Under the pieces are notes generated by a model. It did not search any database and was not told the origin of the DNA. It saw nothing but the letters and a program-made list of their open reading frames with translations. From Psychrobacillus psychrodurans (GTDB lineage Bacteria; Bacillota; Bacilli; Bacillales_A; Planococcaceae): a stretch of DNA of 64,000 nt. Location of the stretch: contig FOUN01000001.1 in NCBI GenBank assembly GCA_900114885.1, positions 310,001 through 374,000 of the forward strand. Reading direction: 5' to 3'. A program made the position numbers and the translations under genes. This document shows, in pieces, positions 4,587-49,612 of this stretch (the stretch's first letter is position 1; each line of letters begins with the position of its first letter).

Positions 4587-4631
4587 TGGAGAAATATGCT
4601 CCCTCTTTCGTATAAGGGTGATATTTAATAA

Positions 4632-4745
4632 TTTACTTGCTCTCGCCAGTCATTTACTTGCGTTCTCTGTTGCTTTACTAGCTTTCAATATATAAATACT
4701 TACGGATGGACTATGATTACTTGCGCTTGTATTGAATTTACTTGC
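4632..4745 (+). repeat. 21-bp phased TACTTGC array (six units)
   Basis: The 9-mer TTTACTTGC or a close variant starts at 4632, 4653, 4674, 4695, 4716 and 4737, exactly 21 bp apart each time, while the intervening 12 bases are unrelated. A different core, CTYTCGTATA, occurs at 4791 and 4812, again 21 bp apart, and once at 4604. The rest of the 459-bp gap up to fadF holds the operon terminator on the left and the fadF promoter on the right. Confidence 0.85.
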
Positions 4746-4914
4746 TTTAAGGATAATTATTCCATAATTTTGATCTTGAAAAGTGGAAATCTCTCGTATA
4801 AGTTGGCATTACTTTCGTATAGAACGTATTCCTACACGATAAATTTTTAACTTCAGTAAACATCCAATTTACAGAAAAAAATACAAAATTCGCATCAATC
4901 CGAATAAATAACTG

Positions 4915-16814: not shown

Positions 16815-18955
<2,141 letters not shown>

Positions 18956-19013: not shown

Positions 19014-19114
19014 CTTACTCAACAGATTCTGTAGATTCTGGACGAATGTGTGCTGCCGCAAGTACGCATTAGCCTCCATAATAATTGAGTTTGATTGTAT
19101 GAAATTTCCATTCC

Positions 19115-19228
19115 GCAAGTAAATCTTCATCAAGAGCAAGTAAATGAAGAAGGAAAGCAAGTATCTAACGTAGGACAGCAAGTAAATCTCTTATGAAAGC
19201 AAGTAAACGAAACGACACCGCAAGTAAA
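19115..19228 (+). repeat. 21-bp phased GCAAGTA array (six units)
   Basis: GCAAGTA starts at 19115, 19136, 19157, 19178, 19199 and 19220, an exact 21-bp step, usually continuing as AA or AAT, with unrelated sequence between. A single additional copy is at 19058. The array lies in the 1.15-kb gap between the convergent genes pyrG and ywjG. Confidence 0.88.
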
Positions 19229-19400: not shown

Positions 19401-19514
19401 TTTACTTGCTTACAACTATTGTATACTTGCTTTCAACGAGAAAATACTTGCTCCAAGAACTTGCTTACTTGCGTTTGACTTTACAATGCTAGCGCTGAAG
19501 TAGCAAATACTTGT
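19401..19514 (-). repeat. 21-bp phased array in opposite orientation
   Basis: On the plus strand, TACTTGC-type units start at 19401, 19422, 19443, 19464, about 19485 (degenerate) and 19506, again stepping by 21 bp. This is the reverse complement of the array at 19115-19228, so the two arms could face each other across roughly 170 bp. The stretch between them shows nothing else recognisable. Confidence 0.82.
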
Positions 19515-19539
19515 GCAATGGAAAAACTATACAAAGAAA

Positions 19540-27054: not shown

Positions 27055-27174
27055 ATTTATCGTAACATCACAATTTTCTGCTACATATGCGATTGACATC
27101 AATCGGATCGTGTAAGGTATCAGTATCATAACCAACTCTGTTCCAGATGGTTCAGGGCGAGAGGAGAGATAGAG

Positions 27175-28204: not shown

Positions 28205-28432
28205 GAACGAAGGCTAAGAGCGCCACCTCTCAAAAGGAAGGCAATCTAAGTTCGCTGCGTCCTGCAGCAACGATTGCATAACCCACATCCTGTGGGCCTC
28301 AACGCCTTCGTGACCAACTTCCTGTTGGCCTCCGCGGGGGGAGCGATGAGCTATCACCGTCGCTTTGCGTCGTTGTGATTTCTCATCTGTCTCACTCATC
28401 CCGCTGGAGTCGTCGCCTTCCACTACAATCAA
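28205..28432 (-). repeat. Dispersed GC-richer element, copy 2 (minus orientation)
   Basis: Read on the minus strand it begins TTGATTGTAG and continues GGCGACGACTCCAGCGGGA, the same entry sequence as the other copies. It includes internal short palindromes such as GAGGCCCACAGGATGTGGG. It lies in the 866-bp tdk-prfA gap together with a plus-strand copy at 28678; the stretch between holds no gene. Confidence 0.7.
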
Positions 28433-37901: not shown

Positions 37902-38101
37902 CGTGTACTGTTATTGCCGGTAAACGTTATGAAGAATCAAGGGGAGAACCACCTGAACAATCAGGTAAGTCACCGGAATAAACTGAAGAAACCTCGTAAT
38001 CGACAATTTATTCATTTTTCGTACGAATTTCCTTATCAATTATAGAAAGTCTCAATCTAAAAGGAGAGATTTTATAGCAACATAATCATTTGCGCGTGTT
38101 G

Positions 38102-38845
38102 TTTACTTGTTCTCATTAGGAGTTTACTTGCCCTCCCCTACCAGGTACTTGCTTTCCTTATTCAAATACTTGCTCTCGAAGACGTATTACTTGCGAAACG
38201 GAAATTTATTACAAAAGTAGCTCTATTCTCTGAGCTCTTTAATCCTACCGTGACTAGATTTGCTTCAGCGCACAACCGATTAGAAGTGTCAAAAGGATAT
38301 TTTACTGCAATAGAACCATTTACTTGCGGGTCGTGTTGTTTACTTGCGCTCATTAGGAGTTTACTTGCCCTCCCCTACCAGGTACTTGCTTTCCTTATTC
38401 AAATACTTGCTCTCGAAGACGTATTACTTGCGAAACGGAAATTTATTACAAAAGTAGCTCTATTCTCTGAGCTCTTTAATCCTACCGTGACTAGATTTTT
38501 GGCAGCGGATACCCGATTAGGAAGTGTCAAGCGGATATTTTACTGCAACAGAACCATTTACTTGCGGAGTCGAGTTGTTTACTTGCTCTCAATAGAAGTA
38601 TACTTGCTCACCTATACCAGGTACTTGCTTTCCTTATTCAAATACTTGCTCTCGAAGAGGTTTTACTTGTGAAACGGAAATTTATTACAAAAGTAACTCT
38701 ATTCTCTGACTTATTTAATCCTACCATTACTAGATTGTTGGCAGCGGATACCCGATTAGGAAGTGTTAATAAGAAGAAATTTTACTGCGAGATAATAATT
38801 TATTGTTGTGCTATGTTATTTACTTGCTCTCAATGGAAATTTATT
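38102..38845 (+). repeat. Higher-order (about 238-bp) tandem repeat containing 21-bp phased TACTTGC arrays
   Basis: Units begin with TTTACTTG(C/T) at 38102, 38339, 38578 and, partially, 38819 (periods 237, 239, 241). Within unit 1 the TACTTGC core steps by 21 bp at 38102, 38123, 38144, 38165 and 38186. A non-periodic segment then follows with landmarks ACGGAAATTTATTACAAAAGTA and CTAGATTTT...CCGATTAG, and the phasing resumes near 38319. Units 1 and 2 are nearly identical; later ones diverge. The array occupies most of the 1.27-kb glyA-upp gap. Confidence 0.9.
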
Positions 38846-49312: not shown

Positions 49313-49612
49313 GCTAGTAAATGGTCTATAAGAGCAAGTAACTTAGAAAGTAGAGTAAAAGTCCGATTAACGCAAGTAAACTAAGCACAAAGGAAGATTG
49401 TAATCTCACTATATATATATTTCAAATAGATGGGCGATGTTCAGAGATCCAAAGATTAACTTCAAATTGGTACCTTAAATAGTTAAATTTTCCCTTTCGC
49501 AAGTAAATCAGGGTTGAAAGCAAGTAAACGAAAGACGAGAGCAAGTACCTTATAACTAGCAGCAAGTATGTTACTATGGAGCGTAAGTAAAGCACATACG
49601 TAAGCAAGTAAA
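49313..49612 (+). repeat. 21-bp phased GCAAGTA array between murAA and spoIID
   Basis: The main run has GCAAGTA or GTAAGTA starting at 49499, 49520, 49541, 49562, 49583 and 49604, all 21 bp apart. A weaker flank has GCTAGTAA (49313), GCAAGTAA (49334), a degenerate unit near 49355 and GCAAGTAAA (49372). The AT-rich segment between (about 49385-49495) shows nothing recognisable. Confidence 0.88.

Follow-up and report, generated by a model that had tools for sequence, protein, structure and literature searches.

Plasmid iterons, direct repeats phased at roughly two helical turns, lie beside the gene of the Rep protein that binds them, and in centromere arrays such as parC, with its partner ParR, a small DNA-binding domain recognizes direct repeats in phase. 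Another arrangement is that of REP sequences and REPINs with the RAYT tyrosine transposases, which comprises many short extragenic repeats with higher-order groupings, an endonuclease-type gene adjoining the same repeats, and different repeat groups accompanied by different genes (PMC3116915). NERD is named among putative CRISPR auxiliary genes (PMC10910872). In this work, we describe intergenic arrays of a short core repeated at 21-bp steps in Psychrobacillus psychrodurans and its relatives, and we propose, with a probability of roughly 0.6, that they are the DNA sites of NERD nucleases, the two together forming a repeat–nuclease system that works like REPIN-RAYT and is not a member of it.

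The stretch under analysis, referred to as the window, comprises 64,000 nucleotides of the source genome (G000:C8:310001-374000; 4.0 Mb in 47 contigs), and its MurA is 96% identical to that of P. psychrotolerans and 93% identical to those of P. lasiicapitis and P. vulpis. The initial annotation had reported GCAAGTA/TACTTGC cores at 21-bp steps in five places, typically six copies in each, and had named an equally frequent phase of another length as a result that would speak against phased sites. The cores and their spacing are present in all five places, and the phase, which corresponds to two helical turns, is essentially the only one found. Exact 6-mers in three successive copies occur 43 times at step 21 in the window, compared with none at any other step from 10 to 38 and one at step 39, and no step-21 triple arose in any of 20 first-order Markov shuffles of the window. 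Self-matches of 6-mers number 172 at distance 21 and 12–98 at the remaining distances from 7 to 69, the highest of these being 9 and the multiples 42 and 63. Genome-wide, TACTTG N15 TACTTG N15 TACTTG matches 219 times (95 + 124) and the same pattern read backwards not once; with gaps left free between 4 and 34 bases, the triple matches 288 times (138 + 150), and non-21 gaps among the matches listed are mostly mixtures of 20 and 21. This backward reading is not neutral for the pattern TACT N17, as it matches other 21-bp repeats, so that other periods and shuffles were used as controls. A 453-kb sample, consisting of the window and 20 further stretches of the source genome picked for holding arrays, contains 35 non-coding four-copy chains at period 21 and none at other periods from 10 to 40; the 304 unit-to-unit steps in its 63 arrays are 21 bp in 273 instances, 20 bp in 20 and 22 bp in four, while seven skip one unit. 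Among 80 named MurA loci, mostly from Planococcaceae and Bacillaceae, 13 non-coding four-copy chains were found at period 21 and at most two at any other period between 10 and 40.

Five arrays were delineated in the window. The first, A1, consists of six 21-bp units beginning TTTACTTGC at 4632..4757 on the plus strand, with a cap dyad, GGATAATTATTCC, at 4751..4763 (plus); its orthologue in the related genome G014 is partial (three units and the cap), and that in G016 has other core letters. Beside A1, also on the plus strand, lie one unit that belongs to a second core family (CTTTCGTATA, resembling CTCTCGTATAG) at 4605..4614 and two units of that family, CTCTCGTATA and CTTTCGTATA, set 21 bp apart at 4791..4821; arrays of this second family fill the intergenic region of A1 in G014 and G016. 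A2 (19103..19228, minus strand, six units) has an orthologue in G014 that is identical at 42 of 42 core and 54 of 60 spacer positions, and A3 (19401..19526, plus strand, five scored units across six steps) has orthologues in both G014 and G016. The site first delimited as 38102-38845 does carry 21-bp cores, but is organized as a higher-order repeat of a whole module: A4 (38095..38788, plus strand) comprises 2.9 copies of 239 bp, with modules of five scored units at 38102..38206, six at 38319..38443 and six at 38557..38682, all on the plus strand. Similarly, the site given as 49313-49612 contains a genuine array, A5, between murA and a spoIID-like gene (49487..49612, minus strand, six units), whereas 49313..49380, on the same strand, holds only scattered GCAAGTA units out of 21-bp phase with it. 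Relatives have arrays with other cores, or NERD genes, in the region of A5. The window also contains another intergenic tandem repeat at 18419-18950, with a period of 123/246 bp and 246-bp copies that are 95% identical; it directly follows a gene ending at 18425 and has a shorter relative at the same place in G014.

Most arrays in the 453-kb sample are modules of six 21-bp units that close with a conserved cap (40 arrays have six units, as initially described, 12 have five, five have four, four have seven, one has nine and one has ten). Across 208 distinct units, the consensus reads TTTACTTGC[TG]nTC[AG], after which the bases vary, and the last unit of a module is distinct, reading TTTACTTGCGnAAnGGATAATTTTTCCA or similar and bearing a weak dyad of the kind seen at A1 (3.4 of 6 pairs at its centre, versus 1.2–2.3 at other centres). 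Modules are duplicated in tandem together with their flanks, at 239 bp in the window and at 103, 167, 175, 185, 186 and 226 bp elsewhere in the source genome, and long chains reach 18 copies at G000:C46 and 29 copies in locus L333. Translated repeats were considered as well, since a unit of 21 bp spans seven codons and ASK heptads can be read on one strand; this was ruled out by stop codons seen by eye in the spacers and by several higher-order periods (103, 167, 175, 185, 226 and 239 bp), which are not multiples of three.

The 12 bases between cores had been taken as random, with spacers conserved between arrays held to be incompatible with selected phased sites. They are not random in the source genome, because 12 dispersed modules of one subfamily have their spacers in common unit by unit, and for this subfamily spacers are thus conserved between arrays. 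Mean pairwise identity among the 12 is 0.934 in cores, 0.693 in spacers, 0.727 in the cap and 0.43–0.49 in the flanks, and the core–spacer difference is significant (permutation p 5e-5) in a comparison biased toward cores, since the modules were found via them. A flank-only search for paralogues, free of that bias, returned 42 matches and was spoilt by a second dispersed repeat within the query. This second repeat is short, corresponds to query letters 58-98 (L083:10030-10150, minus strand), and recurs at about 35 places in the source genome. Orthologues behave like the paralogues: over ten array pairs of the source genome and G014, 344 of 366 core and 436 of 520 spacer positions are identical (a hand sum with one alignment each), although some pairs are equally conserved in both parts (40/42 vs 55/58; 47/49 vs 71/72) and some young pairs show no difference at all. 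As cores exceed spacers in both comparisons, selection for phased sites remains tenable, though as a weaker claim.

The placement of the arrays between transcription units and in both orientations, as the initial annotation had it, was largely borne out. By rough ORF calls, the 26 array cases of the source genome comprise 15 in tandem and 11 in convergent intergenic regions, with none in a divergent one, the intergenic regions longer than 150 bp in the same stretches being 83 tandem, 34 convergent and 28 divergent; an additional array overlaps an ORF call of 318 bp. In 12 of the 15 tandem regions, GCAAGTA runs in the same direction as the genes. The window arrays at 4632, 19103, 19401 and 49487 lie, by eye, just past a hairpin-plus-T-run at gene ends, and from this position we infer that the arrays probably act as DNA rather than RNA. 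No array matched in a gathering-threshold RNA-family scan of the window, which did detect a Bacillaceae-1 RNA at 28230-28296 (74.9 bits) and an L31 ribosomal-protein leader at 27136-27166 (34.4 bits).

Outside the window, arrays with the same 21-bp phase and other cores adjoin genes of NERD-domain proteins. Behind murA in 19 Psychrobacillus genomes, many species have 21-bp arrays of differing cores and several have a NERD-domain gene among the matches listed, and at the 80 MurA loci, where 12 NERD genes are present, 11 of 36 arrays are no more than 0.7 kb from one of these. The domain (PF08378) was above cut-off in all five scanned proteins (53–59 bits against 22.1), which are predicted to combine a nuclease with a zinc ribbon of four cysteines and, at the C terminus, a winged helix; among the folds listed, the predicted fold is nuclease-like (PD-(D/E)XK-like) over residues 12–193 and a winged helix over residues 264–323, although fold matches were not counted as evidence of membership, and a sequence search of solved structures gave nothing useful (best E 0.011). 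Psychrobacillus genomes carry 4–10 NERD genes each in a genus-wide search, and long NERD proteins were found in 220 of the 261 Planococcaceae genomes searched. Of the best-scoring 30 NERD loci, 13 have a period-21 chain and 17 have none, with no other period from 12 to 36. An array was detected within 0.5 kb of 36 of 49 Psychrobacillus NERD genes (from 14 genomes, out of about 120 genes among the matches listed) as against 11 of 196 other genes of at least 250 aa in the same stretches (Fisher p 1e-22, odds ratio 47), in a choice of genes that was not blind, arrays being previously known at those 13 of 30 loci and near the murA-locus NERD genes, G012:2934338, G016:C19:15415 and G000:C22. Long NERD genes in other genera, chosen before any repeat was looked for, have an array at 17 of 20 loci, compared with 1 of 10 other genes. 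Around the 49 genes, 50 array clusters lie within 0.5 kb, seven at 0.5–1 kb and none at 1–2 kb, and the density at 2–7 kb is 0.02–0.10 per kb (distances above 7 kb are hardly sampled); the array is on the 3' side in 34 of the 49 and on the 5' side in 10. No array was detected at 13 of 49 genes in Psychrobacillus and 3 of 20 elsewhere by a detector that requires exact 6-mers containing at least three different letters, so that it misses the CGCCCG array seen by eye at the NERD gene on G000:C44. Three pairs of neighbouring NERD genes with high NERD scores have no 21-bp array in the examined loci (G014:C1:2846457-2847834, G009:C52:28807-30257 and G001:C24:15002-16429).

The closely read NERD genes each have their own core, and related NERD proteins have related cores. 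From 69 NERD loci, 54 have an adjacent array and 53 of these a protein of at least 250 aa; across the 53, the distance between proteins correlates with the distance between arrays (Mantel r 0.389; largest of 2000 permutations 0.148) for the whole protein, the winged helix not being separated from the rest. Array similarity falls from 0.86 at protein identities of at least 80% to 0.27 at 20–30%. We consider cognate binding of an array by its NERD protein likely.

The TACTTG triple occurs in 4 of 19 Psychrobacillus genomes including the source, four copies of TTTACT at 21 bp in 17 of 200 family genomes, with species-typical continuations, and six copies of TACT at 21 bp in 30 of 261, a few of which (e.g. 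G007:C34) look coding by eye. In genus g3 (G055, G236, G222, G129), the backward control pattern, TCAT at 21-bp steps, matches hundreds of times (340 + 107 in G055, 95 + 247 in G236), which points to very large 21-bp repeat families with another core. As an exception to the 21-bp period, the murA locus of G004 (L225) has a repeat array in 19-bp steps (TTTGTGTGTAACTCGAGAG-like) behind murA. Syntenic counterparts of 14 array-holding regions of the source genome, some overlapping, were sought in G014, G012 and G016, and a TACTTG array was present in 8 of 12, 1 of 10 and 1 of 8 located regions, respectively. In the orthologous arrays of G016, core letters 3–6 and 9 are kept and letters 7–8 are changed, partly to the CT of its own NERD gene, whose arrays read TTACTCTCG. 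Where the source genome mostly has TGC, the 27 counted G016 units (of 33 aligned, six were set aside because they align a G016 array for a second time) read CTC in 8, TGC in 5, CGC, AGC and TAC in 3 each and other letters in 5, one unit aligned as TTT being CTC in the sequence itself. On these alignments, the core differs from that of the source genome in part in favour of the core at the species' own NERD gene; because the spacers can still be aligned, the copying-in of whole units is not a simple explanation, and short-tract gene conversion may have taken place.

One locus has the same flanks in the source genome, G012, G014 and G016, with a NERD gene in the last three and none in the source genome. 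G012 has a GCAAGTAA-type NERD gene between arrays, and GCAAGT-type arrays are dispersed in this species, whose matching gene such arrays flank. In G014, these flanks (83% and 88%) enclose a different type of NERD gene, with CTCTCG arrays, G016 has a TACTCTC-type gene (flanks 79% and 85%), and the source genome has fused arrays with no gene, within flanks of 85% identity over 3740 columns and 81–85% over 2115 + 1444. A close homologue of the G012-type (GCAAGTAA) gene was not found in the assemblies of the source genome or G014, whose gaps leave doubt. Given these flanks without a gene and the missing homologue, the window arrays look like orphans of a lost NERD gene. No insertion event with a target-site duplication was seen, intergenic regions being strongly diverged at the loci compared.

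How such a system might work can be outlined as follows. The winged helix would read the 7–9-bp core, and the 21-bp step would place up to six proteins side by side on the same face of the helix, adjoining the weakly dyadic cap. Among the genes examined, a NERD gene is usually accompanied by an array with its core, mostly on the 3' side, and arrays with the core of the gene can lie in other intergenic regions, as in the GCAAGTAA family of G012. Modules have been copied to new places with their spacers in one subfamily, putatively by the nuclease; they expand locally as higher-order repeats and are then inherited in place. Array cores may adapt to what the resident NERD protein recognizes, as part of the evidence from one species suggests, and arrays would persist after the gene is lost, at the one locus described above possibly by recombination between flanking arrays; this orphan state would be that of the source genome for the GCAAGTAA family. 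The most likely role would be that of a chromosomal repeat–nuclease replicator, in which the nuclease helps its own arrays to be copied; that such copying is why the system exists we put at slightly below even odds. Several observations count against the proposal. Arrays are not more numerous where the gene is present (219 and 72 TACTTG triples in the source genome and G014, without a matching gene, and 32 in G012, with it), and G012, despite its matching gene, has retained a TACTTG array at just 1 of the 10 located regions. The NERD loci with no detected array, the array pairs in which core and spacer are equally conserved, the partial nature of the core difference in G016 and the lack of any insertion with a target-site duplication count against it as well.

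The NERD proteins could instead serve the host by docking on the arrays for the discrimination of own from foreign DNA, for chromosome organization or for the insulation of gene ends, in which case the bound arrays would be needed. Inheritance in place at 8 of 12 located regions common to the source genome and G014, the better conservation of cores, the partial tracking of the resident gene, the avoidance of divergent regions and the agreement of GCAAGTA with gene direction in 12 of 15 tandem regions speak for such a service, and NERD domains occur, as partial matches, in the defence proteins PglW and MADS6. Yet both arrays and genes are gained or lost between closely related species, cores vary widely, arrays are more numerous in species without the gene, and PADLOC gave no match for four of five NERD proteins and one partial PglW match for the fifth (E 1e-5, residues 44–139), which leaves this explanation rather unlikely. 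Much less probable is autoregulation combined with titration, with the array at the gene as operator and the dispersed arrays as decoys soaking up a dangerous nuclease: arrays do touch NERD genes (3' side 34/49, 5' side 10/49) and the dispersed core in G012 is the gene-linked one, but the array is mostly behind the gene rather than at a promoter, and decoys should vanish with the gene, whereas the source genome and G014 keep many. That the arrays are 21-bp minisatellites grown by slippage, with NERD genes just sitting in repeat-prone intergenic hot spots, fits the clear higher-order duplications and the chains of 18 and 29 copies, and is the least credible of all in view of the almost single period, cores that outlast spacers, the odds ratio of 47 and core similarity that is predicted by protein distance.

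Returning to the arrays as sites of NERD nucleases, we regard the full picture as having slightly better than even odds: a new chromosomal repeat–nuclease system, widespread in Planococcaceae and present in other Bacillales, in which each NERD/winged-helix nuclease has a private 21-bp code, codes diverge with the protein, arrays elsewhere follow letter by letter and orphans remain after gene loss. If true, a common protein family of unknown role would gain a specific, testable DNA target, and one rule, a fixed 21-bp phase with a changing core, would explain a class of intergenic Bacillales repeats. Since many NERD genes adjoin their own putative site, they would also offer a natural series of changes in protein–DNA specificity.

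No named element of this design was known to the initial annotation, and our search, among the titles and abstracts listed (most subscription papers being outside its scope), likewise found no 21-bp phased intergenic arrays and no report of NERD genes with repeats. Compared with plasmid iterons, the arrays are chromosomal and occupy many loci per genome, and the Pfam matches of the five NERD proteins include no replication-initiator family; many arrays per chromosome also set them apart from parC/ParR. With CRISPR they have in common regular repeats, changing spacers and an adjacent nuclease gene, but the core is 7–9 bp and the 12-bp spacers are common to dispersed arrays, unlike long near-identical repeats with unrelated spacers; the listing of NERD as a CRISPR auxiliary may reflect arrays like these, and screens for CRISPR-associated genes may count such arrays. 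The closest likeness is to REPIN-RAYT, in that repeats lie beside a partner gene and are dispersed outside genes. The partner here, however, is a PD-(D/E)XK-like NERD protein with a winged helix, NERD being the only domain above cut-off, and not a tyrosine (HUH, Y1) transposase, and the repeats are direct, on one strand and 21 bp in step rather than palindromes or inverted doublets, only the cap having a weak dyad. Given this difference in enzyme type and repeat form, the arrays and their NERD genes are best described as working like REPIN-RAYT while standing outside it.
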